A DNA stretch of 41,973 nucleotides from a bacterium (GTDB lineage Bacteria > Zixibacteria > MSB-5A5 > WJJR01): the NCBI GenBank assembly GCA_035559435.1, contig DATMBC010000083.1:1-41973 (forward strand), given 5' to 3'. A program made the position numbers and the translations under genes. The stretch's first letter is position 1; every line of letters begins with the position of its first letter. Positions 2 to 17,559 of this stretch are shown in pieces. The notes under the pieces are model-generated. The model ran no database searches. It saw nothing but the letters and a program-made list of their open reading frames with translations, and was not told the DNA's origin.

Positions 2-1099
2 CCGGGGTACCGCAAGCTGATGGAGTGGGCCGATGCCCCGATCATGCCGACCCCGGGCGCGGTGGGCTCGATCATCAAGCGCGTCGCGGAGATGGAAGGC
101 ATCGAGGTGGTCGGCGTCGACATCGGCGGGGCGACCACCGACGTGTTCTCGGTCTTCCAAGGCGTGTTCAACCGCACCGTGTCGGCCAACCTCGGCATGT
201 CGTATTCGATCTCGAATGTGTTCGCCGAGGCTGGGTTGCCGAACGTGATGCGCTGGGTCCCCTTCCACATGGACGAGCGCGATTTGCGCAATCGCGTCAA
301 AAACAAGATGATCCGTCCGACCACCATTCCGCAGACGATGGAGGAGTTGATCTTCGAGCAGGCAATCGCCAAGGAGGCGTTGCGCCTGGCCTTCATCCAG
401 CACAAGTCGTTTGCGACGGTGCTCAAGGGCGTCCAGCAGCAGCGCACGATCGCCGACGCCTTCGAGCAGTCGGCTTCCGGGCAGACGTTGGTCAACATGA
501 TGACGCTGGACATGCTGATCGGGTCGGGCGGAGTGCTCTCGCACGCGCCGCGTCGTCAACAGTCGGCGTTGATGTTGATCGACGCCTTCCTGCCGGAGGG
601 GATCACGCGGCTGGCGGTCGACTCGATCTTCATGATGCCGCAACTGGGGGTGCTGGCCGAAGTGCATCCCAGGGCGGCCACCGAAGTGTTCAACAAGGAC
701 TGCCTGATTCACCTGGGCACCTGCATCGCGCCGGTCGGCGAGGCCAAGGGCGGCAAGGGGCCGGTGATGGATTACCACATCGAGTTTCCCGATGGCCGTG
801 TCGAGAAGGGCACATTGGAATTCGGCACGATGAAACTGTTCAAACTGGGCATGGACGAGAAGACCAGTCTGCCGGCGGTGGCCAAGGCGGTCTTCGAGCC
901 GCAGCGCGCGTTCGATGTGGGCGCGGGCAAGGGCGTGAAAGTGGAGCGTAAGATTTCCGGCGGCGTGGTCGGGATCATCCTCGACGGCCGCGGACGGCCG
1001 TTTGCGGTGCCCACCGATGACGCCACCCGTGTGGCGAAACTGCGCGAGTGGATGCTGGAACTGGACATCTATCCGCGCGCGGCGTTGGAGCGGGCGTAG
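2..1099 (+). CDS. MutL/GlmL-like actin-fold ATPase, 5'-truncated
   Basis: The reading frame is open to the left edge, so the N-terminus lies outside; about 365 residues remain. The first ATG in the window (position 20) is internal. An ASKHA-type phosphate loop, VDIGGATTDVFS, stands near the start of the visible part. Later come IGSGGVLSHAP and LIHLGTCIAPVG, which match the GlmL/MutL family (glutamate-mutase-associated ATPase) as I recall it. Known members are thought to help reactivate or assemble adenosylcobalamin mutases, but no mutase or B12-binding subunit is visible here. The gene lies 35 nt before a barrel-sandwich protein and then three membrane modules in the same direction, so it may instead energise or gate that membrane system. 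The family call is fairly sure; the role is inference. Confidence 0.75.
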   Translation, partial: PGYRKLMEWADAPIMPTPGAVGSIIKRVAEMEGIEVVGVDIGGATTDVFSVFQGVFNRTVSANLGMSYSISNVFAEAGLPNVMRWVPFHMDERDLRNRVKNKMIRPTTIPQTMEELIFEQAIAKEALRLAFIQHKSFATVLKGVQQQRTIADAFEQSASGQTLVNMMTLDMLIGSGGVLSHAPRRQQSALMLIDAFLPEGITRLAVDSIFMMPQLGVLAEVHPRAATEVFNKDCLIHLGTCIAPVGEAKGGKGPVMDYHIEFPDGRVEKGTLEFGTMKLFKLGMDEKTSLPAVAKAVFEPQRAFDVGAGKGVKVERKISGGVVGIILDGRGRPFAVPTDDATRVAKLREWMLELDIYPRAALERA

Positions 1100-2321: not shown

Positions 2322-3689
2322 GTGGCGGAGCGGAATCCATTGACATCACAACCCCGCGGCCTCACCAGCATAAGCGGCGATTTGTCGGAACGGGTCAACA
2401 TAGGAAGAAAGCCAACAGGCACCCTCCTCCGGCAGGGACTGTTTGTCCTGTTGATCGTCCTTTTCGTCCACGGCCCGGCCTTTACCCAGTCTCCTCCCAG
2501 CGACAGCATGGCGGCGATCGCGCCGACCGTCGCGGAGCCGCCGGCGCCGCACCCGCCCACCGGTGTGCGCGGGTCGGATGCCCCCAACGATAACGGCGAG
2601 GCGATCATTGTCAGCTGGAACCTCTCGCCGGATGACGGCGCCGGTCTGGACAATGTGGAGTCGTACCTGATTCTGCGCGGGACATCCCCGGACGGGCCCT
2701 TCGACACCGTGGGCGCGGCCGCGGCGGGGCAGACCTCCTTCACCGACGCCACGGTTCACTCCGGCACCATTTATCACTACATCGTCTCGGCGGTGGCGCT
2801 GGCGCCGGTGCCGGGCGGCGAGCCCAAACCGGTGTACATTCAGTCGGAGCCGTCGGCGGCGGTGCAGGGAGTGGCGCAGTGGTTCCATTCGCGCCGTCTC
2901 AATGCGCTGATCGCCGTGATCATCCTTTGCTCGGCCATCCTGTACTTCATCAACGCCGCCCGGTCGGGCAAGTCGGTCTACATTCGCAAGATTGGCGGCC
3001 TCGAAGCGGTTGACGAGGCGGTCGGGCGCGCCACCGAAATGGGCAAGAAGATCTTCTACATTCCCGGCACCCAGGACATGGACGAGGTCCAGACGCTGGC
3101 CGGGATCACCATTCTCGGCCGGGTCGCCAAGGTGGCCGCCGACTACGAGGCCAAGCTGGAAGTGCCGGTGTCGCGGTCGCTGGTCATGGTCACCTGCCGC
3201 GAAGTCGTCAAGGAAGCGTTTCTCAACGCCGGCCGTCCGGATGCCTACCGCGAGGAGAGTGTCTACTACCTCACCGACGACCAATTCGGGTATGCGGCCG
3301 GCATCGACGGCCTGGTGATGCGCGACAAGCCCGCGACGATGTTCTACATGGGCGCTTTCTACGCCGAATCGCTGATTCTGGCGGAAACCGGCAACTCGAT
3401 CGGGGCGATCCAGATCGCCGGGACCGCGATGCCGGCGCAGCTGCCTTTCTTTGTCGCCGCCTGCGACTACACGCTCATCGGCGAGGAACTGTTCGCCGCG
3501 TCGGCGTACCTCTCGAAGGAACCGAAACTGTTGGGCAGTCTGAAGGGGCAGGATGTCGGCAAGGGGATCATCCTGGTGACGATCCTGGTCGGGATCATCC
3601 TGACGTCGATCGGGGCGATCACGCTGAAGACCAGCGACCCCGAGAAACTCGGTCCCTATAACATCGGACAGTATTTCGAGGTCGAGTAG
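2322..3689 (+). CDS. Module A protein 1: FN3-like domain plus DUF6754-like membrane protein
   Basis: 455 residues from GTG 2322. A TTG at 2340 with GGCGGAG nine bases upstream is an equally good start and shortens the long n-region. A signal-peptide core (GLFVLLIVLFVHGPAFTQS) sits at about 39-57. A fibronectin-III-like domain spans about 80-180. A transmembrane segment at 193-212 is followed by positively charged NAARSGK, so the next domain (213-413) should be cytoplasmic. A second span lies at about 415-433. The cytoplasmic domain carries GRATEMG, AGRPDAY, QFGYAA and the block CDYTLIGEELFAASAYLS (381-398), nearly unchanged in the two paralogues. I believe this matches DUF6754 (recalled from memory). 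First of a four-gene module, with protein 2 starting 8 nt downstream. Function unknown. Confidence 0.7.
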   Translation: MAERNPLTSQPRGLTSISGDLSERVNIGRKPTGTLLRQGLFVLLIVLFVHGPAFTQSPPSDSMAAIAPTVAEPPAPHPPTGVRGSDAPNDNGEAIIVSWNLSPDDGAGLDNVESYLILRGTSPDGPFDTVGAAAAGQTSFTDATVHSGTIYHYIVSAVALAPVPGGEPKPVYIQSEPSAAVQGVAQWFHSRRLNALIAVIILCSAILYFINAARSGKSVYIRKIGGLEAVDEAVGRATEMGKKIFYIPGTQDMDEVQTLAGITILGRVAKVAADYEAKLEVPVSRSLVMVTCREVVKEAFLNAGRPDAYREESVYYLTDDQFGYAAGIDGLVMRDKPATMFYMGAFYAESLILAETGNSIGAIQIAGTAMPAQLPFFVAACDYTLIGEELFAASAYLSKEPKLLGSLKGQDVGKGIILVTILVGIILTSIGAITLKTSDPEKLGPYNIGQYFEVE

Positions 3690-3697
3690 GCCGGGCC

Positions 3698-4354
3698 ATG
3701 CGTCGCGAAATCCCCACTTTCATCGCGCTGTTTGTCGGCGTGGTCTGCATCGTGCAGTTCTTCATTCCGCACCGGCCCTTCGGCACGTTGGTCGACACGT
3801 TTTCCGACTGGTTTGGCATCCTGCAGGCCTTTGCGATCTGGCTTGGGGCGCTGAATCTGCTGCGGGTGAGCACGCAACGGACGCTGGCCAAGAAGAGCCA
3901 TGACCGCTGGTACGGCATCGTTGTGATTCTGTCGTTCCTGCTGATTGCGATCATCGGGCTTTTCTTCTCGGGCGGACGCGGGTTCCAGTTGGCGGGGACG
4001 CGTTTCGACTATCTGTACGTCAACGTCTACACGCCGCTGTCCTCGACGATGTTCGCGATCCTGGCATTCTTCGTTGCCTCTGCCTCCTACCGCGCCTTCC
4101 GCGCGCGCAGTTGGGAGGCGACGTTGCTCTTGCTGGCGGCGTTTTTGGTGATGTTGGGTCGGGTGCCGGTTGGCGACACGCTGACCGGTTTCCTGCCGGA
4201 GGGGTATCGTTTGTCGGACGTGGCCAGTTGGATTATGACCTATCCGCAGGTGGCGGGCCAGCGCGCGATCATGATCGGCATCGCGCTCGGCGTGGCCTCG
4301 GCCTCGCTACGGCTCATTCTGGGACTGGAGCGCTCGTACCTGGGCGGCGAATAG
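3698..4354 (+). CDS. Module A protein 2: polytopic membrane protein
   Basis: 218 residues with about six predicted membrane segments (6-23, 36-55, 72-90, 110-129, 140-155, 186-208). Shared with paralogues at 7185-7973 and 11110-11733 are an early FIPHRPFG-type motif, FFVASASYRAFRAR after the fourth span, and the C-terminal AGQRAIMIGIALGV...LGLERSYLG. No catalytic motif is evident. It starts 8 nt after protein 1 and ends 12 nt before protein 3, so co-translation and membership in one membrane complex are likely. Family not recognised; function unknown. Confidence 0.65.
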   Translation: MRREIPTFIALFVGVVCIVQFFIPHRPFGTLVDTFSDWFGILQAFAIWLGALNLLRVSTQRTLAKKSHDRWYGIVVILSFLLIAIIGLFFSGGRGFQLAGTRFDYLYVNVYTPLSSTMFAILAFFVASASYRAFRARSWEATLLLLAAFLVMLGRVPVGDTLTGFLPEGYRLSDVASWIMTYPQVAGQRAIMIGIALGVASASLRLILGLERSYLGGE

Positions 4355-4366
4355 CCGGACTTCGAC

Positions 4367-5239
4367 ATGTCAGCCACCGAGCCCACCATGACGCGCGCGC
4401 CCTTCCTGGAGCGGATGATGCGGATCGACCGCCGCGTCATCTTCATCCTCATCGGCGTGGCGCTGATCTTCCCATTGTTTTTCGATATTACGCAGAAATT
4501 GCCGGTGTCGCGCGAGGTGCAGATGGCCGCCGATGCGTTGGAGGCGGTCCCCGACGGCGCGTTGGTGCTCTATTCCATGGACTACGATCCGCCGTCGGCG
4601 CCGGAGTTGCAGCCGATGGCGGTCACGGCGTTGAAGGTCGGGCTGCGCAAGAAGTGGCGGATGGTGATCATCGGCCTGTGGCCGCAGGGCCCGCAGCAGG
4701 CCAATCTGGCGCTGCGTTCCGCGCTGGCCGACGAGGAGTTCAAAGACGTCCGACTGACCGAGGGCGTTGACTATGTCAACCTCGGGTTCCAGTCCGGCAA
4801 CGAAGCGGTGATCCAGAAGATGGGATCGGATATTCCGTCGACTTTCCCGCGCGATTACCGCGGCATCCCGGTCGGGGAGATCCCGATCATGCGCGGCATC
4901 AAGAATCTCGGCAACTTCGATTTTGTCGTGAATGTGTCGTCGGGCTATCCCGGCACGCGTGAATGGGTGCAATTCGGGGTGGACCGCTTCGGGGTGCGGA
5001 TGATTTCGGCCAGCACCGCGGTGCAGACCACCGAGATGTTTCCGTATGTCGGGCGTCAGTTGGCCGGGCTGGTTGGCGGGATGCGCGGCGCGGCCGAATT
5101 CGAGCAGATCACCAGCACCCCGGGCCGCGCGCTGAAGTTCATGGTGGGGCAGTCGGTGGCGCATGTGGTGGTCATCCTCTTCATTGTGATTGGCAACGTC
5201 GCCTACTTCGCCACGCGGAAGAGCCGGAGGGACAAGTAG
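4367..5239 (+). CDS. Module A protein 3: bitopic protein with extracytoplasmic domain
   Basis: 290 residues. An N-terminal basic stretch (MMRIDRRV) precedes a span at about 24-39. A soluble domain of about 220 residues follows, then a span near 262-281 and a basic tail TRKSRRDK. By the positive-inside rule both ends are cytoplasmic and the domain lies outside the inner membrane. Conserved with the paralogues are MDYDPPSAPELQPM, YVNLGFQSGNEAVI, PRDYRGIPVGEIPIM and LVGGMRGAAEFE. The alternating hydrophobic strands suggest an alpha/beta fold, but I see no active-site signature. An internal ATG at 4388 is a possible alternative start. Function unknown. Confidence 0.65.
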   Translation: MSATEPTMTRAPFLERMMRIDRRVIFILIGVALIFPLFFDITQKLPVSREVQMAADALEAVPDGALVLYSMDYDPPSAPELQPMAVTALKVGLRKKWRMVIIGLWPQGPQQANLALRSALADEEFKDVRLTEGVDYVNLGFQSGNEAVIQKMGSDIPSTFPRDYRGIPVGEIPIMRGIKNLGNFDFVVNVSSGYPGTREWVQFGVDRFGVRMISASTAVQTTEMFPYVGRQLAGLVGGMRGAAEFEQITSTPGRALKFMVGQSVAHVVVILFIVIGNVAYFATRKSRRDK

Positions 5240-5244
5240 CGCCT

Positions 5245-5898
5245 ATGTGGATGGATCATCCCGGCTGGGTCCTGTTTGGCACGTGGGTCGGCGCGCTGCT
5301 CACGCTCGGCATCATGTCGTTCCTGTACAAGGACAACCCGGTCTACAAGTTCTGCGAGGCGCTCTTTGTCGGGATCTCCGCCGGGTACTGGTTTGTCAGC
5401 TATTTCTGGTCGAACCTCCTGCCGAAGTTGGGCGACCCGCTTATGCAGGGCGACCTTCTGGTCCTGATCCCCGGGGTGCTGGGCATCATGATGCTCCTGC
5501 GCCTGGTGCCCAGCATCGGCTGGATTTCGCGCTGGCCGCTGGCGTTTGTGGTGGGCTTCACCGCCGGGTTGCGCCTGATCACCTACCTGCAATCGAACGC
5601 GATGACGCAGCTGCAGAACTCAGTGCAGCCGGTGATCAGTTACAGCGCGACCGGCGCCTTCCAATTCTGGCCCTCGTTCAACATGCTGTTGGTCACCTTG
5701 GGGACCTTTGCCGGACTGCTTTACTTCTTCTTCTCCAAGGAGCACAAGGGCGCCTTTGGCACCATCTCCCGGATCGGGACCTGGTTTCTGATGGTGACTT
5801 TCGGGGCGGCGTTCGGATATACTGTGATGGGACGCATGTCGCTGCTGATCGGACGGATTGACTTTCTGCTGGCCGACTGGCTGCATCTGATCAATTGA
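5245..5898 (+). CDS. Module A protein 4: polytopic membrane protein
   Basis: 217 residues from ATG 5245, five bases after the preceding stop, with GGAGGG upstream inside the previous gene. About five or six membrane segments. Motifs shared with module B and C partners are SFLYKDNPVYKF, GISAGYW, WISRWPLAFVVGFTAG, YFFFSKEHKGAFG and FGYTVMGRMSLLIGR. The loop FSKEHKG is the best conserved piece of the family and probably lies at a membrane boundary. It closes module A. Family unknown; the motifs do not match a transporter class that I recognise. Confidence 0.65.
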   Translation: MWMDHPGWVLFGTWVGALLTLGIMSFLYKDNPVYKFCEALFVGISAGYWFVSYFWSNLLPKLGDPLMQGDLLVLIPGVLGIMMLLRLVPSIGWISRWPLAFVVGFTAGLRLITYLQSNAMTQLQNSVQPVISYSATGAFQFWPSFNMLLVTLGTFAGLLYFFFSKEHKGAFGTISRIGTWFLMVTFGAAFGYTVMGRMSLLIGRIDFLLADWLHLIN

Positions 5899-5912
5899 GC
5901 CGGCGCGCCGGC
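5899..5912. repeat. Perfect 14-bp palindrome between modules A and B
   Basis: GCCGGCGCGCCGGC directly follows the TGA of module A protein 4 and lies 20 nt before the module B start. In RNA it can form GCCGG-CGCG-CCGGC. No T-tract follows, so it is not a canonical terminator; a partial transcript boundary or 3'-end protection is possible. Confidence 0.5.
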
Positions 5913-5932
5913 CGCCGGGCCAGACCAACGTC

Positions 5933-7171
5933 ATGAATCGCGCTGACCGTCTCTCATCCCTGCTCGTTGCACTGTCTCCGGCGATTCTGATCCTGGCGCT
6001 CTTCCCTGCCTTTGCGATCCCCCAGACAACCGCAGATACGGCGGCGGCCTTGGTCGGTCCGCCGCAGAATGTCCGTGTGAGCGACACCAAAGGGGACGAA
6101 GGCGGATCGATCACGGTCACTTGGGATTTGTCCCCCGACGATCATGGCGGGGCCGACACCGCGACCGCGATCATCGGCTACGAGATTCTGCGTTCGGAGT
6201 CAGCGGCGGGACCGTTCCAATCGGTCGGGTTTGCGCCGAAGGGCGCGACCCGGTTCGCCGACGCCTCGACCCATGACGGCGTGGGCTACTACTATCAGGT
6301 CGTTGCCAGCACGGCGCAGGGCGGCGCGGCCGCCGCGCCGGTGGGCCCGGTGATGTCCAGCGCGCAGTGGTTTAACACCAACCGGACCAATGTGCTGGTC
6401 ATTGGACTTCTGCTGTCCGGCTCCATCATCTACTACATCGCTTCGGCCCGCCGGGGCAAGAAGCTGTTCATCCGCCGGATTGCGGGACTGGAAGCGGTGC
6501 AGGAGGCAATCGGCCGTGCCACCGAAATGGGACGTCCGATTCTGTACATCCCCGGCATTCAGGACATGGACGATGTGCAGACGGTGGCCGGGGTGACGAT
6601 TCTCGGCTATGTCGCGCGCACGATCGCCGAATACGACACCAAGATCGAAGTGCCGACCTCGCGGTCGATTGTGATGTCCACGGCGCGCGAGACGATCAAG
6701 TCGGCCTATATCGCGGCGGGACGTCCCGATGCCTACTCCGACGACGCGGTCCATTATGTGACCGACGAGCAGTTCGGGTATGTGGCGGCGGTCGACGGCA
6801 TCATGGTGCGCGACAAACCCGCCACCTGCTTCTATATGGGCGCGTTCTTCGCCGAGTCGCTGATCATGGCCGAGACGGGCAACTCGATCGGCGCGATCCA
6901 GATCGCCGGGACCGCCATGCCGGCGCAATTGCCGTTTTTTGTCGCCGCTTGCGACTACACCCTCATTGGGGAGGAGCTCTTCGCCGCCTCCGCCTATCTC
7001 TCCAACGAGCCGAAGCAGTTGGGCTCGCTGAAGGGGCAGGATGTGGGCAAAAGCATCGCCATGCTGGCGATCGCCTCCGGCGTGATCCTGTTGACCCTGC
7101 ATCAGGTGACACGGGTCGAGTGGTTCCTGAGGGCGGGCAACTGGGTGAAAGACCTGTTTTTGTTGAACTGA
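5933..7171 (+). CDS. Module B protein 1: FN3-like domain plus DUF6754-like membrane protein
   Basis: 412 residues. A signal peptide occupies about 1-31 (LLVALSPAILILALFPAFAIPQ). An FN3-like domain spans about 43-143, followed by a span at 152-170, basic SARRGKK, a cytoplasmic domain about 175-370 and a last span about 372-389. It is closer to module A protein 1 than to module C: the stretch from FYMGAFFAESL through CDYTLIGEELFAASAYLS (340-357) to LGSLKGQDVGK is almost the same in A and B, also at DNA level. There is no obvious Shine-Dalgarno at ATG 5933, so translational coupling is possible. Function unknown. Confidence 0.7.
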   Translation: MNRADRLSSLLVALSPAILILALFPAFAIPQTTADTAAALVGPPQNVRVSDTKGDEGGSITVTWDLSPDDHGGADTATAIIGYEILRSESAAGPFQSVGFAPKGATRFADASTHDGVGYYYQVVASTAQGGAAAAPVGPVMSSAQWFNTNRTNVLVIGLLLSGSIIYYIASARRGKKLFIRRIAGLEAVQEAIGRATEMGRPILYIPGIQDMDDVQTVAGVTILGYVARTIAEYDTKIEVPTSRSIVMSTARETIKSAYIAAGRPDAYSDDAVHYVTDEQFGYVAAVDGIMVRDKPATCFYMGAFFAESLIMAETGNSIGAIQIAGTAMPAQLPFFVAACDYTLIGEELFAASAYLSNEPKQLGSLKGQDVGKSIAMLAIASGVILLTLHQVTRVEWFLRAGNWVKDLFLLN

Positions 7172-7184
7172 GGACCGGGATTCG

Positions 7185-7973
7185 ATGCGTCGTCAAGTTC
7201 CGCTGATCATCACTCTCATCGTGGGCGCGGTGCTCATCATTGCCGCGTTCATTCCGCATCATCCCTTCGGCCGGCTAGGCGAGAACTTCTCGCTGTATTT
7301 CGACATCATCGCGGTGTTCGCGTTTCTGTTGGGCGGCGGCAACCTGGTCCGCATTCACGGCGCGCGGTTTCTGCGCGGGGTGCGCACCTCGGTGCAGGAA
7401 GCGAAGAAGGGCGGCGGGTTCTGGCCGCTTAAGTTCCTGGTCGAGTTTCCCTTCTTCGCCTTCGGCGGCCTGGAAGACAAGCGCGGGCGCGACTGGTTCT
7501 TCTCCCTGATCACGCTGGCGGGGTTCTTCGCGATGCTCTACGCCGGCCTGTTCAAGATCGGCAATCCGGACGGGTGGCAGGGGAACGTGACCCAGCCCGG
7601 CGGGTTGTTCCAGGAATTCTACCAGTCGATGTTCAATCCGTTGCAGGCGACAATGTACGCGCTGTTGGCGTTCTTTGTCGCCTCGGCCTCATACCGGGCG
7701 TTTCGCGCCAAGACGCTGGAAGCGACGATCCTGCTGGCGACGGCGTTTATCATACTGCTGGGACGGACGCCGGCGGGGACCTACGCCACCGACTGGCTGC
7801 CCTCGTGGCTGGACTTCTTCCACATTCCCAATCTCGCCAACTGGATCATGGCGGTGCCGAACCTGGCCGGCCAGCGGGCGATCATGATCGGCATTTCGCT
7901 GGGGGTCATCGCGATGTCGCTGCGCGTCATCCTCGGCGTCGAACGGACCTATCTCGGAGCGGACGAGAAGTAA
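7185..7973 (+). CDS. Module B protein 2: polytopic membrane protein with insertion
   Basis: 262 residues, about 44-55 longer than the A and C paralogues. The extra length is mostly one insert after the second span (around GVRTSVQEAKKGGGFWPLKF through DKRGRDWFF), probably a cytoplasmic or peripheral loop. The rest aligns with paralogues: FIPHHPFG near the start, FFVASASYRAFRAK in the middle and AGQRAIMIGISLGV...LGVERTYLG at the end. It lies 13 nt after protein 1 and 3 nt before protein 3. Function unknown. Confidence 0.65.
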   Translation: MRRQVPLIITLIVGAVLIIAAFIPHHPFGRLGENFSLYFDIIAVFAFLLGGGNLVRIHGARFLRGVRTSVQEAKKGGGFWPLKFLVEFPFFAFGGLEDKRGRDWFFSLITLAGFFAMLYAGLFKIGNPDGWQGNVTQPGGLFQEFYQSMFNPLQATMYALLAFFVASASYRAFRAKTLEATILLATAFIILLGRTPAGTYATDWLPSWLDFFHIPNLANWIMAVPNLAGQRAIMIGISLGVIAMSLRVILGVERTYLGADEK

Positions 7974-7976
7974 GCC

Positions 7977-8864
7977 ATGGCCAACGGCGAGCGTCCCACG
8001 TTCCTGGAACGGGTGCAGGCGATTGACCGCCGCATCATCTTTCTGTTCGTCGCGCTGGCGGTCTCGCTGCCGCTTGTGTTCCATGTCATCTTCCCGGAGA
8101 AGATCTCGCCGATTGTGTCCTCGATGTTCGACCGCATCGAGAGCCTGCCCGAGGGATCGCGGGTTTTGATCTCGTTTGACTATTCGCCGTCGACGGTGCC
8201 GGAAGTCCAGCCGATGGTCGACGCGGTGGTCCGTCATTGCGCCGCGCGCAAGCAGAAGTTGTACCTGATGGCGTTGTGGGCGACCGGGCAGAACATCACC
8301 GATGAGACCATCCACCGCGTGATCGAGAAGGAATTTCCCGAATACCGCTACGGCGAGGACTACCTCAATCTCGGCTACAAGTCGGGCAACCAGGGACTGA
8401 TCAACGTCATCCTCACCGACATGAAGAAGATGTACACCACCGACGTGCACGGGACGGCGATCGACTCGATTCCGATGATGGCGCAGATCCGCAACCTGCG
8501 CAATTTCGACATCATCTTCACCTTCGGCGGCGGATTCCCCGGCACCAAGGAGTGGGTGCTCTTTGCCGGCGACCCGGGGAAGATCCCGGTGGCCAGCGGC
8601 GTGACCGCGGTCCAGGCGCCGCTTCTGTACCCGTACTATCCAAGCCAGTTGCTGGGTTTGATGGGGGGCATCAAGGGGGCGGCGGAATACGAATACGAAC
8701 TGATCCGCCGGTATCCGCGGTTTGCGAATGTCGCGCATCCGGGGATCGACATGATGGGGCCGCAGGCGGTCGCCCATCTGGTGATCATGCTGTTTATCGT
8801 GATCGGCAACATCGCCTACTTCGCCGGCCGTCGCCGTGAGGCCAAACGACAGGGGACGCCGTAG
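7977..8864 (+). CDS. Module B protein 3: bitopic protein with extracytoplasmic domain
   Basis: 295 residues. FLERVQAIDRRIIF leads into the first span; the last span (VAHLVIMLFIVIGNIAYFAG) ends in basic RRREAKRQ, giving a predicted N-in/C-in topology with the central domain outside. Conserved pieces include FDYSPSTVPEVQPM, YLNLGYKSGNQGLI, IDSIPMMAQIRNLRNFD, GFPGTKEWV and LMGGIKGAAEYEYE. The stop codon TAG (8862-8864) shares its last base with the GTG start of protein 4, so the two are translationally coupled. Function unknown. Confidence 0.65.
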   Translation: MANGERPTFLERVQAIDRRIIFLFVALAVSLPLVFHVIFPEKISPIVSSMFDRIESLPEGSRVLISFDYSPSTVPEVQPMVDAVVRHCAARKQKLYLMALWATGQNITDETIHRVIEKEFPEYRYGEDYLNLGYKSGNQGLINVILTDMKKMYTTDVHGTAIDSIPMMAQIRNLRNFDIIFTFGGGFPGTKEWVLFAGDPGKIPVASGVTAVQAPLLYPYYPSQLLGLMGGIKGAAEYEYELIRRYPRFANVAHPGIDMMGPQAVAHLVIMLFIVIGNIAYFAGRRREAKRQGTP

Positions 8865-9607
8865 TGGAACGCCGCCCGATCTGGTATCTGGTCGGCCTGA
8901 TTGCCGTGATCCTGGCCTTTGCAGTCTCCACCACCCTGCGCGGCTTCTATATCACGCTGGGCTCGTTCCTGACGCTGTCGATCCTCAGTTTCCTCTATAA
9001 GGACAACATTTTCTACAAGGCCGCCGAGCATCTGTTCGTCGGCGTGTCGGCCGGGTACTGGATGGTGATGGGATTCTGGTCGGTGTTGATTCCCAACCTG
9101 ATCGGCAAGCTCCACCCCCCGCTGGTGCGTCCGTTTGTCCCGGCCATCGCCGACCAGCCGCCGTCGTACTGGTATTTCATCCCGGCGGTGCTGGGGCTGA
9201 TGCTCCTGTGGCGACTGTCGCCGAAGTGGCCGTGGATTTCGCGCTGGGCGCTGGCGTTCATCGTCGGGACCACCGCCGGCCTGAATTTCATCCGCTACAT
9301 GGCCTCCGACCTGCTTGGCCAGATCAACTCCACGATGGTGCCCCTGGTGGTCATCGAGGGGGGCGCGCTTGACACGCTGACCTCGATGTCGAACATCGTG
9401 ATCTTCCTCGGGGTCTTCTGCGGGCTGATCTACTTCTTCTTCTCCAAGGAGCACAAGGGCGCCTTCGGGGTCGGTTCACGGATCGGCATCTGGATCCTGA
9501 TGGTGACCTTCGGCGCCGGGTTCGGCTACACCGTCATGGCGCGCATTTCGCTCCTGGTGGGCCGCTTCCAATTCCTGCTGGGCGACTGGCTGGGGATTCT
9601 CAGCTAA
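8864..9607 (+). CDS. Module B protein 4: polytopic membrane protein
   Basis: 247 residues from GTG 8864, overlapping the previous stop by one base. It is longer than its A and C paralogues because of an extra N-terminal span (IWYLVGLIAVILAFAVSTTL) and a loop around 85-105. Shared motifs are FLYKDNIFYK, VGVSAGYW, WISRWALAFIVGTTAGL, YFFFSKEHKGAFG and FGYTVMARISLLVGR. It closes module B, and a 113-nt gap with no clear terminator separates it from module C. Function unknown. Confidence 0.65.
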   Translation: MERRPIWYLVGLIAVILAFAVSTTLRGFYITLGSFLTLSILSFLYKDNIFYKAAEHLFVGVSAGYWMVMGFWSVLIPNLIGKLHPPLVRPFVPAIADQPPSYWYFIPAVLGLMLLWRLSPKWPWISRWALAFIVGTTAGLNFIRYMASDLLGQINSTMVPLVVIEGGALDTLTSMSNIVIFLGVFCGLIYFFFSKEHKGAFGVGSRIGIWILMVTFGAGFGYTVMARISLLVGRFQFLLGDWLGILS

Positions 9608-9720
9608 TAAGCGGATCGATCGCCCCGTCTCCGAGCCGCGAATTTAGAGGCGGCAACGCGGTTAGTCGTTGCATCGGCCGACGGCACGGTTTAAGTTGGC
9701 TTTTGTTGGACCCTGCGACC

Positions 9721-11088
9721 ATGCCGCACACGCCCACCCCTCCATACACTTCGCCGGCGCGACTCCTTGCCTTGGGCATGGTGGTTCTGGCCATGCTGTG
9801 GGCCACTCTGACGTTGGCGCAGACGCCGGGCGACACAGCCGCGACGGTAGCGGTCGAGACGGCGCCGGCGCCTCAGCCGCCGCTTCCGGCCACCGGCATC
9901 CGCGCCTATGACGCGCCCAACGACGGCGGCCACGCCATCACGGTTGAGTGGACGGCCTCGGGCGATGACGGTCAGGGCCGCAACAATGTGGTCATGTATC
10001 GGGTCCTGCGAACGCCGGCCCTGCGCGGCCCGATCAGCCCCGATTCGGTGCCGCCGGGCGATCCCTCCTATCGATTGTTTGACAGCCGGGCGTATGGAAC
10101 CGCGGCCTGGCGCTTCATCGAGAACCAATGGGACACGCTGGCGGATGTCCCGATGGGCAGCACCCGCTACGAAAACCGCGGCGGGAAACAGCGCGCCTCG
10201 AACGACTTCCTCCCCGATCACATCGAATTTCGCTACAAGGTCCTGACGATCAACGACGCCGGCGGAATCGCCGAATCCGAAGTGTCGGCGCCGGCATCGG
10301 CGTCCGGGCAGTATCTGCACACCGGCAAGCTGCTCCACATCGGCATTCCGGTGGTCATCTTTTTGGCGCTGGTCCTGTATTTCATCAACGCGGCCAAAAG
10401 CGGCAGGGAATTGTATATCCGACCGCTGGCGGGCATCAACGCGGTCGATGAGGCCATCGGACGCGCCACCGAGATGAATCGGCCGATCCTGTATGTCCTG
10501 GGGCTGGGCGCGGCCGATGAGATCGCCACGATCGCCTCGCTGACGATCCTCTCGCGCGTGACCAAAAAGGTCGCCGAGCACCGGACCGAACTGCTGGTCC
10601 CCTGCTATGACGCGGTGGTGATGTCGATCGCGCAGGAGACGGTCAAGCAGGCCTACCTCGACGCGGGCCGTCCCGACGAGTACAAGGACGACATCGTTTA
10701 TTTCGTGACGCAGGAGCAATTCGCTTACGTGGCGGCGGTCAACGGCACGATGTTGCGGCGGCAGACGGCGACCAACTTCTACCTTGGCGTCTTCTTTGCC
10801 GAGTCGCTGATTCTGGCCGAGACCGGTTCGATCGCCGGGTCGATCCAGATTTCCGGGACCGACCGGACCACGCAGATTCCGTTTTTTGTGGTGGCCTGCG
10901 ACTACACGCTCATCGGCGAGGAACTCTTCGCCGCCTCGGCGTACCTGAGCCGCGAGCCGAAATTGCTGGGCACGTTGAAGGCCCAGGACTACGCCAAGGC
11001 GATCTTCCTCGGCGTGTTGATCGCCGGATGCGTCGGCGCCGCCCTGCAATGGCAGTGGATTGCGCGGACGTTTCACCTGAGTTTTTAG
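9721..11088 (+). CDS. Module C protein 1: FN3-like domain plus DUF6754-like membrane protein
   Basis: 455 residues from ATG 9721; an in-frame TTG at 9703 would add six residues. A signal peptide lies at about 13-34 (LLALGMVVLAMLWATLTLAQ). The FN3-like domain, about 56-195, holds an insertion of roughly 40 residues (about 108-148) absent from A and B. A span at 204-222 is followed by basic AAKSGRE and the cytoplasmic domain. CDYTLIGEELFAASAYLS (from residue 393) is unchanged although the flanks have diverged (TGSIAGSIQISGTDRTTQI instead of the A/B version). This is the most divergent of the three copies. Function unknown. Confidence 0.7.
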   Translation: MPHTPTPPYTSPARLLALGMVVLAMLWATLTLAQTPGDTAATVAVETAPAPQPPLPATGIRAYDAPNDGGHAITVEWTASGDDGQGRNNVVMYRVLRTPALRGPISPDSVPPGDPSYRLFDSRAYGTAAWRFIENQWDTLADVPMGSTRYENRGGKQRASNDFLPDHIEFRYKVLTINDAGGIAESEVSAPASASGQYLHTGKLLHIGIPVVIFLALVLYFINAAKSGRELYIRPLAGINAVDEAIGRATEMNRPILYVLGLGAADEIATIASLTILSRVTKKVAEHRTELLVPCYDAVVMSIAQETVKQAYLDAGRPDEYKDDIVYFVTQEQFAYVAAVNGTMLRRQTATNFYLGVFFAESLILAETGSIAGSIQISGTDRTTQIPFFVVACDYTLIGEELFAASAYLSREPKLLGTLKAQDYAKAIFLGVLIAGCVGAALQWQWIARTFHLSF

Positions 11089-11109
11089 ACCCGACGAGCG
11101 AACCAGACC

Positions 11110-11733
11110 ATGAAGCGCCAACTGCCACTTGCCATCATCTTTCTGTGCGGCGCCTTCACGCTGTTCCAATACTTCATTCCGCACGAGCAATCGGAGTATC
11201 TCTACGAGTTTGTCGCGCTCGACTGGCCGCCGATCATCGGCGTGTTCGCGCTGATGCTGGGCATCTTCTCGCTGATTCGGGTGTCGTGGGGGAAGATCCG
11301 GCGCAAATCCGAGAACTGGCCGTATGCGATTGTGACGCTGATCGGGCTGGCGGGGATGATCGCGACCGGGCTTCCCGGCATCGGCGACCACAACGCCCCG
11401 GCGGTGCGCTGGCAGTTCAATTATATCGTCTATCCGGTGTCGGCGACGATGTTCTCGATTCTGTCGTTTTTCATCGCCTCGGCCGCTTACCGCGCTTTCC
11501 GCGCGCGGTCGTTCTTGGCCACCGTGCTCCTGGTCTCGGCGGTGATCGTGATGATCCGATTCTTCCCGCTGGGGCCGCTGACCGACCCGGTGGGCACCAC
11601 CGCCGACTGGGTGTTGAATGTGCCGAATCTGGCGGCCAAACGCGCGATCGTGATCGGCGTCGGGCTGGGCATTGTCGCCACGGCGCTCAAGATTGTGCTG
11701 GGCATCGAACGGTCCTACATGGGCCGGGATTGA
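11110..11733 (+). CDS. Module C protein 2: polytopic membrane protein
   Basis: 207 residues with about six membrane segments, and the shortest of the three paralogues. It has YFIPHEQSEYLYEF near the start, FFIASAAYRAFRARSFLATVLL in the middle, and AAKRAIVIGVGLGI...LGIERSYMG at the end, matching modules A and B position for position. It starts 21 nt after protein 1 and ends 13 nt before protein 3. Function unknown. Confidence 0.65.
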   Translation: MKRQLPLAIIFLCGAFTLFQYFIPHEQSEYLYEFVALDWPPIIGVFALMLGIFSLIRVSWGKIRRKSENWPYAIVTLIGLAGMIATGLPGIGDHNAPAVRWQFNYIVYPVSATMFSILSFFIASAAYRAFRARSFLATVLLVSAVIVMIRFFPLGPLTDPVGTTADWVLNVPNLAAKRAIVIGVGLGIVATALKIVLGIERSYMGRD

Positions 11734-11746
11734 CGGGGACCGGGCA

Positions 11747-12595
11747 ATGAACTTCTTCGAGAAAATGTTCGCCATCGACCGGCGTTGGGTCTACCTCACG
11801 CTGTTTGTGGCGGTCGTTGTCTCGCTGCTTTTGGATTTCTCCATCCCCGTGCCGATTTCGAAGGAAGCGCGTAACATCTACAACTACATCGAGGGTCTCA
11901 ACGCGGGCGACGCCATCCATCTGGCGCTGGACTATGACCCGTCGGTCTCGGCGGAGCTGGATCCGATGACGCTGTCAGTCCTGAAGCAGTGCTTCACCAA
12001 GGACATCAAGGTCATCATCACCGCGCTGCACCAATTCGGGCCGGCGCTGGCCGCCGAGCGCATCGACACGGCGGTGGCGCGTCACGCGGCGCTCACCGGC
12101 GAGAAGAAGATCAACGGCGTCGACTTTGTCTACCTCGGCTACAAGCCCTACCCGGTGCTGATCATCCTCGGCATGGGGCAGAATTACCGGATTCCCTTCC
12201 CGCGCGACTACTACGGCGTGTCGTTGGATTCGCTGCCGATGATGGCCAACATCCGCAACTACAGCGACGTGAAGGCCGTGATCAACATCTCCGGAACCTC
12301 GGCCACCGACTGGTGGATCTCCTACGGCAACGGGCGTTACGGGGTGCCGCTGGCCATCGGCGTGACCGGCGTCATGGCCACCGAGTACTATCCCTACCTG
12401 CAGACCGACCAGATCTTCGGGCTGCTGGGCGGGCTGAAGGGCGCGGCGGAGTACGAGATGCTGGTCAACACTCCGGGCCCGGCGGTCGAGGGGATGAAGG
12501 TGCAGATCGTGGCGCACGCCATCATCATTCTGTTCATCGTGATTGGGAATGTCGGATTCTTCGCGATGCGTCGCTCGGAGAAGCGGAAGGCATAG
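11747..12595 (+). CDS. Module C protein 3: bitopic protein with extracytoplasmic domain
   Basis: 282 residues from ATG 11747 (MNFFEKMFAIDRRW), which aligns with the FLERM.IDRR start of the paralogues; the open frame further upstream lies inside protein 2 and is rejected. The first span is about 17-34 and the last is IVAHAIIILFIVIGNVGFFAM before a basic tail RRSEKRKA. Conserved pieces are LDYDPSVSAELDPM, FVYLGYKPYPVLI, PRDYYGVSLDSLPMMANIRN and LLGGLKGAAEYE. The SGN of A and B is replaced by PYP in the YLGYK motif, so those residues are not essential in every copy. Function unknown. Confidence 0.65.
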   Translation: MNFFEKMFAIDRRWVYLTLFVAVVVSLLLDFSIPVPISKEARNIYNYIEGLNAGDAIHLALDYDPSVSAELDPMTLSVLKQCFTKDIKVIITALHQFGPALAAERIDTAVARHAALTGEKKINGVDFVYLGYKPYPVLIILGMGQNYRIPFPRDYYGVSLDSLPMMANIRNYSDVKAVINISGTSATDWWISYGNGRYGVPLAIGVTGVMATEYYPYLQTDQIFGLLGGLKGAAEYEMLVNTPGPAVEGMKVQIVAHAIIILFIVIGNVGFFAMRRSEKRKA

Positions 12596-12615
12596 GAGCG
12601 GAAACCGGGCACCTT

Positions 12616-13257
12616 ATGGATTGGTCAACGACGATTGGAATCTGGGTTGCGGCGTTTCTGACGCTGGCGATCTTCTCATTCTTGTACAAGGACAACCCCT
12701 TCTACAAGTTCGCCGAGCACCTGATGGTCGGCGTATCGGCGGGGTACTGGGTTCTGATCCTGTTCTACACCGCGTTCATGCCCAAGGTGGTGCAGAACCT
12801 GCAGGCGGGGAACTGGTGGTACCTGATTCCGACGTTGCTGGGCCTGCTGATGTGGACCCGCCTGTTTAAGGGCTGGTCGTGGGTGTCGCGCTACCCGCTG
12901 GCGATCTATATCGGCGTGACCTCGGGAGTGGCGATCACGCTGGAGATGAAGGCCAAGGTGATCGAGCAGTTGTATGGCTCGATCGACCTGGTGACGCAGA
13001 TGAACAGCGCCAACGCCAGCACCGCCCTGACCGTCAACAACCTGATCATCCTGATCGGCGTCATCACCGCGCTCATCTACTTCTTCTTCTCCAAGGAACA
13101 CAAGGGCGCGACCGGCTTTCTGGCGCAGATCGGCATCGCCACGCTGATGATCGGGTTCGGCGCCTCCTTCGGCTTTACCGTGATGGCGCGCATTTCGCTT
13201 CTCATCCAACGCCTGCAATTCCTGATGTTCGATTGGATCAATCTGCCGCGCGGATAG
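12616..13257 (+). CDS. Module C protein 4: polytopic membrane protein
   Basis: 213 residues from ATG 12616, 20 nt after protein 3. Family motifs are present: SFLYKDNPFYKF, VGVSAGYW, WVSRYPLAIYIGVTSG, YFFFSKEHKGATG and FGFTVMARISLLIQR. It is similar in length to the module A copy and lacks the extra N-terminal span of module B. A DUF2238-like gene follows 17 nt downstream. Function unknown. Confidence 0.65.
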   Translation: MDWSTTIGIWVAAFLTLAIFSFLYKDNPFYKFAEHLMVGVSAGYWVLILFYTAFMPKVVQNLQAGNWWYLIPTLLGLLMWTRLFKGWSWVSRYPLAIYIGVTSGVAITLEMKAKVIEQLYGSIDLVTQMNSANASTALTVNNLIILIGVITALIYFFFSKEHKGATGFLAQIGIATLMIGFGASFGFTVMARISLLIQRLQFLMFDWINLPRG

Positions 13258-15156: not shown

Positions 15157-15888
15157 TCAGCGGACTTCGCGACGAGAGAAGAAAGCGGCGATCTTTTTTG
15201 CGCGCTTCGGGCCGATGCCGTCAACTTTGGTCAGGTCCTGGGCGTTGGCGGCAAACACGCCGCGCAGGGAGCCAAAGCGCTTCAACATGGCGCGGGCAGT
15301 GACCGGCCCGATCTCGGGAATCATACGGACAATTTGCTCAGCGGCGCTGCTGACGTCGGAGGCCCCTGCGCCGCTGCCGTTGCCATTGCCATTGCCGTTA
15401 TCACTCTCATCGTGCTCGGCCGAATCCTGCGCGGGGACAGTAAGAACCGACGGCGCCGCAGGCACCGTATCGAGCGTCACACCCATGCCGTTTTGCAGTT
15501 GATTGACCATGGCATAGATGAGATCGGCCGAGTCCTTGGGGTCGCTGGCGAAGAGGACAGGCACACGGTTGTGAACCGCGACAAAGGCGAGCGCGCCGCG
15601 GAGAGCGGCGGTGGAGACGGTGCGTTCGCCGTTTTCGACACCCTCCACGATCAGGACGGGTTCGCTGACGGCGCGCTTCAATTCAGTGATGCGGCGAAAG
15701 ATGGTCTTGTCGGCGATCCACCGGGTGAATTCGGCGCGAGAGAGATGCTGGATGACGCAGGCGCCGCTGACGGCGTAGGTCCCCGCCGGCAGATTGGCGG
15801 GCGTGACCTGAACGCCGCGCTCGCTGAGTTGCTGCGCCACCGGCGATGCGGCCGAGAGGGTCTCGGCCATTATGGAGAGCTGTCTCAC
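15157..15888 (-). CDS. ERCC4-domain plus helix-hairpin-helix protein with degenerate nuclease site
   Basis: 243 residues from GTG 15888 (GAGG six bases upstream). Residues about 1-135 follow the ERCC4 (XPF/MUS81/Hef) nuclease pattern: VQVTPANLPAGTYAVSGACVI, then LSRAEFTRWI, then EPVLIVEGV. The catalytic GDxnERKxxxD signature is missing: G36-T37 replaces GD, Q47-H48-L49 replaces ERK, E53 replaces the last Asp, and the early V-D-x-R-E reads IMAET. A low-complexity linker (DNGNGNGNGSGAG) leads to a tandem HhH domain (about 183-238; IPEIGPVTARAML, VDGIGPKRAKKI). It is probably a DNA-structure-binding protein without cleavage activity; family call firm, inactivity inferred. Confidence 0.8.
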   Translation of the reverse strand: MRQLSIMAETLSAASPVAQQLSERGVQVTPANLPAGTYAVSGACVIQHLSRAEFTRWIADKTIFRRITELKRAVSEPVLIVEGVENGERTVSTAALRGALAFVAVHNRVPVLFASDPKDSADLIYAMVNQLQNGMGVTLDTVPAAPSVLTVPAQDSAEHDESDNGNGNGNGSGAGASDVSSAAEQIVRMIPEIGPVTARAMLKRFGSLRGVFAANAQDLTKVDGIGPKRAKKIAAFFSRREVR

Positions 15889-16209: not shown

Positions 16210-17559
16210 TCACGTCTTGCGTTCCTTTTTCCGGGCGGCCGGGAAGAGCACATTGTTGAGAATCAGCCGGTAGCCGCCCGAGTTCTTGTGCAGCGCCAGC
16301 TCGGTCGGCGGGTCATAAATCAGGTGTTGATAGTCTTCCGGATCATGTCCACCCAGAAAGGTAAAGGTTCCCTTGTCGAGGTTGCCGTGCAGGTAGCGGA
16401 TCTCGTTTTGTCCTTCCGCTTCGCCCAACAGAGTGACATACTTTTTCACCAGACTCTTTCGGAAGGCGGTCGTTTGTCCCATGAATCCACTGACGGCATC
16501 CTGGTGGCATTGCACCAGCATCGTCGGCACGGGGTCGAGCTTGGCGGAGAACTCAAACAGGGTGAAGATGTCCCCCTCCGGGCCCAGACGCGAGGCGATC
16601 CGGTCGGGGGAGGTGTCGATGTCGGAGTGCGAGTACTCGAAGGCATCAAGCGACACGGTGAAGTCGGTGAACGCCATGCAGCGTGAATAGTCCAGCCGCT
16701 GCTGACAGTCGGGATCCGGCGGGTCGCCGTCGAATTGCTCCGGCACGATGTCGGTTTCGGCGGCCGCCAGGGCGATGTCGAGGGTCTCCGGCGCCGAGCA
16801 CATGGCAAAGAGAAATCCGCCGCGGGAGACATAGTCCTTGATGGCCAGCGCCACCGCCTTCTTGCAGTCGGAGACCCGGCGGAACCCCAGCCGCTGGGCG
16901 GTCTCTTCGCATAGCTGGACGTCCTGACGGTACCACAGTTCGTTGCGATAGGAGCCAAAGAACTTGCCATACTGGCCCGTGAAGTCCTCGTGGTGCAGAT
17001 GCAGCCAGTCGTAGTGGTCCAGATCGCCGCGCAAGACCTCTTCATCCCAGAGCTTGTCGTAGTCGATCTGGGCGTAGTTGAGCACGAGCGTCACCGCATC
17101 ATCCCAGGGATCGTTGGTAGGCGGGACATAGATGGCGATCCGCGGCGCCTTCTCGAGGATGACCGATTCCATGTTCTCCTGCTCGATGGTGGCGCGGATG
17201 TCGGCTTCCTGGCCGGCATCGATCAGTTGGTAGGTCACGCCGCGCACGTCGCAGGTGTCGAGGATTTCACGGTAGACATTGGCCAGAAACGAGCCGCCGC
17301 GGTAGTTGAGCAGCCACTCGACCTTGATCCCGCGGGTCAGGCAATGGAAGGCCACACCGTAGGCCTTGAGGTGGTTGGCCTGGCTGTTGTCCATCGGGAT
17401 CAACAGCATCTGCGCCGACGCCGACGAGGCGGCGCCCAGCCCGGCAAGGAGCAGGAATAAGACTGGCAGGATCCACCGCACGGGGTGGACTGATCGGCGA
17501 TGGGCCCGTCGCATCCGGTCTACAGCGCGATTGTCACGCGTCAGTGGTCTTATACGCAT
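16210..17559 (-). CDS. Secreted protein of the family labelled asparagine synthetase B in FCB bacteria
   Basis: 449 residues from ATG 17559; ATG 17514 would give a more usual signal-peptide n-region. The signal core is WILPVLFLLLAGLGAASSASAQ. The mature start MLLIPMDNSQANHLKAYG, followed by VEWLLNYRGGSFL, matches an FCB family that databases commonly name asparagine synthetase B (recalled, not searched). I see neither the N-terminal cysteine of a class-II amidotransferase nor an ATP-pyrophosphatase loop, so asparagine synthesis is unlikely. Other features are IYVPPTNDPWDDAVTLVLNYA, YVSRGGFLFAMCSAPETL, TMLVQCHQDAVSGFMGQTT and FTFLGGHDPEDY. It lies 45 nt downstream of the DUF5683-like gene, probably in one transcript. 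Function unknown. Confidence 0.65.
   Translation of the reverse strand: MRIRPLTRDNRAVDRMRRAHRRSVHPVRWILPVLFLLLAGLGAASSASAQMLLIPMDNSQANHLKAYGVAFHCLTRGIKVEWLLNYRGGSFLANVYREILDTCDVRGVTYQLIDAGQEADIRATIEQENMESVILEKAPRIAIYVPPTNDPWDDAVTLVLNYAQIDYDKLWDEEVLRGDLDHYDWLHLHHEDFTGQYGKFFGSYRNELWYRQDVQLCEETAQRLGFRRVSDCKKAVALAIKDYVSRGGFLFAMCSAPETLDIALAAAETDIVPEQFDGDPPDPDCQQRLDYSRCMAFTDFTVSLDAFEYSHSDIDTSPDRIASRLGPEGDIFTLFEFSAKLDPVPTMLVQCHQDAVSGFMGQTTAFRKSLVKKYVTLLGEAEGQNEIRYLHGNLDKGTFTFLGGHDPEDYQHLIYDPPTELALHKNSGGYRLILNNVLFPAARKKERKT

Follow-up and report, generated by a model that had tools for sequence, protein, structure and literature searches.

The 41,973-nucleotide contig DATMBC010000083.1 (assembly GCA_035559435.1) of a bacterium of the Zixibacteria, referred to here as the window, carries three consecutive copies, A, B and C, of a four-gene module encoding the membrane proteins p1, p2, p3 and p4. 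We found that this four-gene membrane unit exists in five ancient versions, orthologous across the phylum, to three of which A, B and C belong. Conserved gene order, one-to-one copy number, co-duplication and p3-p4 fusion strongly suggest that p1 to p4 work as an obligate complex of the inner membrane. A larger system, of which the module is the membrane half, also includes a MutL-family ATPase and a soluble protein, lip, whose genes lie directly upstream in the window and had not been mentioned in the preliminary description of this DNA. The genes of the system in the window are the following.

2-1099, plus strand: mutL (3' part), MutL family (PF13941, E=5.9e-51, profile positions 215-450), an ASKHA-type ATPase of about 610 amino acids
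1135-2259, plus strand: lip, soluble protein of 374 amino acids; N-terminal part a putative barrel-sandwich hybrid (biotinyl/lipoyl/RnfC_N-like), C-terminal part KOW-like
2322-3689, plus strand: A1 (p1), signal/anchor, FN3, transmembrane helix, predicted cytosolic DUF6754 domain (412 bits), transmembrane helix; clade A
3698-4354, plus strand: A2 (p2), protein with six transmembrane helices, no Pfam family
4367-5239, plus strand: A3 (p3), predicted extracytoplasmic alpha/beta domain between two transmembrane helices
5245-5898, plus strand: A4 (p4), start ATG at 5245, polytopic, no Pfam family
5933-7171, plus strand: B1 (p1), DUF6754 421 bits, AlphaFold predicted local distance difference test (pLDDT) 91.5; clade B
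7185-7973, plus strand: B2 (p2)
7977-8864, plus strand: B3 (p3), AlphaFold pLDDT 93.4
8864-9607, plus strand: B4 (p4)
9721-11088, plus strand: C1 (p1), alternative TTG start at 9703, DUF6754 372 bits; clade C
11110-11733, plus strand: C2 (p2)
11747-12595, plus strand: C3 (p3)
12616-13257, plus strand: C4 (p4)

The three modules occupy positions 2322-13257 as complete p1-p2-p3-p4 copies, with 12 intact genes all on the plus strand. Gaps within modules range from -1 to 21 nucleotides, with 34 nucleotides between A and B and 113 between B and C (measured from the C1 ATG at 9721). These remeasured values agree with the preliminary description of three tandem, same-strand modules in the order 1-2-3-4. 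Paralogy at all four positions, which had been read from shared motifs, was confirmed by profiles built from the three window copies, which at E<1e-6 recovered near-equal numbers of each family (76 p1, 74 p2, 72 p3 and 70 p4 homologues, at 41 loci).

The four genes were found together far more often than chance would allow: p2-p3-p4 lie directly 3' of p1 in 174 of the 187 p1 genes with downstream room. The 13 exceptions include split loci, one masked stretch and two fusions, in which a single open frame spans p3 and p4 (a Planctomycetia and a Zixibacteriota locus, L147:9813-11603 and L094:13628-15343). In four Planctomycetia (L144, L145, L146, L148) p1 lies near lip and p3 elsewhere in the chromosome, yet each genome has exactly one p1 and one p3. 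Counts of p1 and p3 were equal in 16 of 17 genomes, with 5:5, 2:2, 6:6, 7:7 and 1:1 among them. The sole mismatch was the window's own genome (five p1 and four p3), whose fifth p1 is truncated at a contig edge (C50). Homologues were therefore mostly kept together in this survey of order and copy number, and not alone and scattered, and the obligate four-protein unit suggested in the preliminary description gains support from order, copy number, fusions and the congruent trees described below. One locus, L224 (G113:C1:1645616-1647296), has two adjacent p1 genes before a single p2-p3-p4.

Phylogenetic analysis placed A, B and C of p1 in three supported clades (27, 36 and 26 rows, respectively). 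The separate trees of p1, p2, p3 and p4 recovered classes A to D as the same clades (Jaccard 1.00; 0.96 for C in p3, owing to one misplaced row), and in a concatenated four-protein tree support was 99 for A and 100 for each of B, C, D and E. The A, B and C clades each span the phylum Zixibacteriota, and classes D and E are located elsewhere in the genomes. The congruence of the single-protein trees indicates that whole modules were duplicated as units and that their parts were never mixed, so that the five co-duplicated classes offer a clean natural experiment in the diversification of a multi-subunit membrane complex whose parts are not exchanged. We surveyed the complement of modules in the window's genome, 19 other well-assembled genomes and three more. 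The usual complement was A-B-C or A-C beside mutL and lip, with D and E elsewhere. The window's genome holds all five classes, with A-B-C in the window and two further copies, E on contig C10 and D at the edge of contig C50. Planctomycetota, Acidobacteriota and some others have single-copy modules that group with class B, and several Fidelibacterota modules branch near A+B.

The classes differ most in one part of the complex. The cytosolic DUF6754 domain of p1 is 57-71% identical between classes, and the outside domain of p3 is 53-58% identical within classes and 32-38% between them. A conserved p1 cytosolic domain together with a class-divergent p3 outside domain is as expected if the modules shared their cytosolic interface and had specialised on the periplasmic side. 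Together with the ancient classes and the loss of B from several genomes (see below), this pattern strongly suggests that the copies are parallel specialised complexes, and not parts of one machine, in keeping with the specialisation proposed in the preliminary description.

All three p1 proteins of the window match DUF6754 (PF20539) far above its curated cut-off of 27 bits, over their C-terminal 250 amino acids. In its AlphaFold model (mean pLDDT 91.5), B1 begins with a signal/anchor helix and continues with an FN3 domain, a membrane helix, the DUF6754 domain, of alternating alpha/beta type with six strands, and a C-terminal membrane helix. This bears out the FN3-like and DUF6754-like architecture first read from the sequence. 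A Foldseek search with this model retrieved titin and neogenin FN3 domains; the best 50 matches were mostly FN3 domains, so that this compares the FN3 part and not the DUF6754 domain. A PDB sequence search of p1 likewise gave FN3 matches only (titin and others). Positive residues after the second helix suggest that the DUF6754 domain is cytosolic. AlphaFold and hydropathy together indicate that p2 and p4 are small polytopic proteins (about six and five to six transmembrane helices, respectively) and that p3 is bitopic with an outside domain, as had been described. In the B3 model an alpha/beta domain lies between two membrane helices, and flanking charges would place this domain outside the cytoplasm.

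Searches of p2, p3, p4 and a further small protein, u (see below), against Pfam, using all alignment members, and of p1 to p4 against NCBIfam, gave scattered sub-threshold matches only, and PDB sequence searches of p3, MutL and lip gave nothing convincing. Profile comparison with hhalign found no homology between p1 and p3, p2 and p4, p1 and lip, or p3 and lip. Among the residues that at least 97% of 124 modules, across all classes, have in common are R181, R195, T197, E198, R293, E308, E314, T327, Q332, D341, E347, E348, D370 and K373 of p1, and the polar H267 and N278 in the predicted second membrane helix of p3. Since these near-invariant residues are kept in every class, no class looks degenerate. 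One p2 of 591 amino acids (L058:13178) has a run of FG-GAP/VCBS-like repeats inserted in a loop.

The start of the window interrupts mutL, and the N-terminal part of the gene was located on contig C24, at the contig end (58890-59597, L230). As the gene is split between window positions 2-703 and the C24 end, the C24 end and the window start adjoin in the genome. Full-length relatives have 604-632 amino acids and match MutL profile positions 1-450 with about 430 bits. The lip protein is 48-81% identical across phyla, and many members show weak profile matches to Biotin_lipoyl, RnfC_N (best 1.2e-6, in one member) and, weakly, NQRA_N, most of them below cut-off. Nearly all relatives have one lip and one MutL per genome, against two to six modules; extra lip matches were gene fragments or fused mutL-lip copies. 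In Planctomycetota, Fidelibacterota, Gemmatimonadota and others the genes form one set, mutL-lip-p1-p2-p3-p4, often with u and v upstream as (v)-u-mutL-lip-p1-p2-p3-p4, where u is a small protein and v a small PH-domain-like membrane protein. Neither u nor v was found adjoining mutL in the window's genome. At four Fidelibacterota loci (L101:1155-4175, L114:4915-7914, L116 and L140:4111-7179) a single fused gene takes the place of mutL and lip and encodes a protein of about 1000 amino acids. In G019, G032 and G036 an extra mutL-lip copy of fused length stands beside the separate genes.

All 132 Zixibacteriota genomes searched contain DUF6754, with 1-6 matches each. It was also detected in 38 of 199 Planctomycetia, never in more than one copy, and in 12 of 16 genomes of a Gemmatimonadota-labelled group. 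Of 149 Fidelibacterota, 91 have it; almost all of these carry a single copy, and assemblies of only 0.8-1.0 Mb are among them. The Planctomycetia with the set include a metagenome-assembled genome labelled Gimesia. Named DUF6754 records also come from Acidobacteriota, Myxococcota, Calditrichota, Cloacimonadota, Fermentibacterota, Latescibacterota, Eisenbacteria and WOR-3, where the copy number reaches seven. These taxon labels derive partly from names of metagenome-assembled genomes, which may be wrong in places. The domain was found in none of 14 well-known control genomes. Its reach across phyla implies a basic envelope function that is absent from these model organisms, carried by a set of about eight genes that is conserved from Planctomycetota to Fidelibacterota and most of whose proteins belong to no named family. 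This function can be tested directly on the single copy of Planctomycetia, a class in which some species are genetically tractable (PMC4910669).

Taken as a whole, we slightly favor the explanation that these genes encode an ATP-powered system for envelope transport or assembly, whose one soluble engine would be shared by several membrane modules of different specificity. Cytosolic MutL would bind and hydrolyse ATP in the ASKHA manner and act through lip (and u) on the conserved cytosolic alpha/beta domain of p1. The change would be relayed through a membrane core bearing polar residues and made up of p2, p4 and the two p3 helices, and the p3 periplasmic domain and p1 FN3 domain would receive or deliver an envelope component. 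The parts of this explanation differ in strength. That the proteins form a complex present in paralogous copies is very probable; that its function is transport or assembly is a tentative assignment, rather more likely to need replacing than to stand. Several points weigh against this explanation. No component has a characterised homologue that indicates transport, and the predicted B3 fold had no PDB match below E=1e-3 by Foldseek. MutL/GlmL relatives are known as reactivases of enzymes and not as transport motors. We found neither a substrate nor an outer-membrane partner nor a consistent neighbour. The fold of the p1 cytosolic domain was compared only together with FN3. Finally, the only evidence that one MutL and one lip serve all modules is their copy number, and a contact of these proteins with p1 to p4 is suggested only by gene order, mutL-lip fusion and co-occurrence.

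We considered whether the set might instead be a membrane redox or ion-pumping complex distantly like Rnf or Nqr, with lip as its barrel-sandwich subunit. The RnfC_N, Biotin_lipoyl and NQRA_N matches of lip, the small polytopic p2 and p4, and conserved charged residues in or near membrane segments are consistent with this. However, neither p2 nor p4 matches any Pfam family, those of Rnf/Nqr included, there is no conserved cysteine cluster among the near-invariant residues, and Rnf and Nqr work without an ASKHA ATPase, and we therefore consider such a complex unlikely. A sensory or regulatory complex, in which the FN3 and p3 domains would sense the state of the envelope and MutL, u and v would relay the signal, seems improbable as well. 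Two extracytoplasmic domains joined to a conserved cytosolic one, the class divergence of the p3 outside domain and the several parallel copies would all suit a sensor, but the gene set contains no kinase, GGDEF, HTH or other output domain, and two polytopic subunits with many invariant residues would be unusual in one.

The preliminary description had also raised the possibility that A, B and C subunits build a single pseudo-symmetric hetero-oligomeric machine. This would explain why three modules stand in one gene run with short gaps, and why A and C nearly always occur together in the order A-(B)-C. However, eight near-complete genomes lack B and retain both A and C (G001, G004, G016, G024, G028, G030, G060 and G130), G023 has A without C, and many phyla have one module. 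A machine of all three is accordingly quite improbable, although a two-module complex of A and C is less firmly excluded.

That mutL simply encodes a reactivase of glutamate mutase (GlmL), and stands beside membrane genes incidentally, is very unlikely. The protein belongs to the Pfam MutL family and GlmL is its best named match in NCBIfam, but scores fall under every NCBIfam cut-off (for example 234 bits where 475 are required, and 178 where 204 are), 36 of 38 relatives, the window's genome among them, lack the mutase subunit GlmE, and mutL-lip adjoins p1 in many phyla. A recent local amplification or assembly artefact, as three copies in series might suggest, can be dismissed for practical purposes, since the window copies differ widely (their p3 domains, for example, are 32-34% identical), every copy falls in a separate clade that spans the phylum, and the same arrangement occurs in the single-contig genomes G113 and G052.

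Other genes lie close to the modules. On the minus strand of the window, 15160-15888 encodes an XPF-like protein with ERCC4 nuclease and helix-hairpin-helix domains, whose position next to the module is conserved in relatives at family and order level, and 16210-17559 encodes a protein of 449 amino acids without a Pfam match, which keeps its place next to C modules in relatives (L017, L019, L022). At L036, L041, L042 and L049 the class D p4 is followed by a sugar nucleotidyltransferase-like gene, and then by MetK and an adenosylhomocysteinase-like gene. We judged two further associations to be incidental as functional clues: D modules beside ptsI, HPr and PGI genes, and C modules near a PPDK-like gene in some genomes. 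A profile of a neighbouring DUF2238 gene drifted into shadow open reading frames and was dropped.

The preliminary description knew of no system with this layout, and our family and literature searches are consistent with that. Among the papers searched, none relevant to DUF6754, PF20539, PF13941 or GlmL/MutL was found, and the main text of a Planctopirus limnophila essential-gene study does not mention such genes (PMC10632474). Membership of p1 in DUF6754 is clear, but this is a family name without a function, and Pfam has no family for p2, p3, p4 or u. The upstream gene encodes a full MutL domain, as in the methylaspartate-mutase accessory ATPase (PF13941, NF040745), but the protein is about 150 amino acids longer, is linked to membrane genes and, at 222-234 bits, does not reach the GlmL equivalog cut-off of 475. 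Any likeness to Rnf and Nqr would lie in the N-terminal part of lip, by weak profile matches; p2 and p4 match no RnfA/D/E or NqrB/D/E subunit, and the set holds no further protein recognisable as part of Rnf or Nqr. Nor does the set resemble the ATP-binding cassette (ABC) transporters, as its ATPase belongs to the MutL family and the conserved genes include no P-loop ATPase. The set could be assigned to no known kind of system, although the fold of the DUF6754 domain might still tie it to one. Group II energy-coupling factor transporters have one energising part, composed of ABC ATPases and a common T subunit, for several membrane modules. Any resemblance to these would be an analogy of layout only, as here all four membrane proteins co-duplicate and the set has no ABC ATPase. 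It is plausible, if somewhat short of an even chance, that these genes represent an undescribed class of ATP-driven inner-membrane machine, built on a MutL-type ASKHA ATPase and a barrel-sandwich adaptor, which would be spread over many diderm phyla and core to the Zixibacteriota, with five parallel modules of differing specificity there and one engine shared by all.

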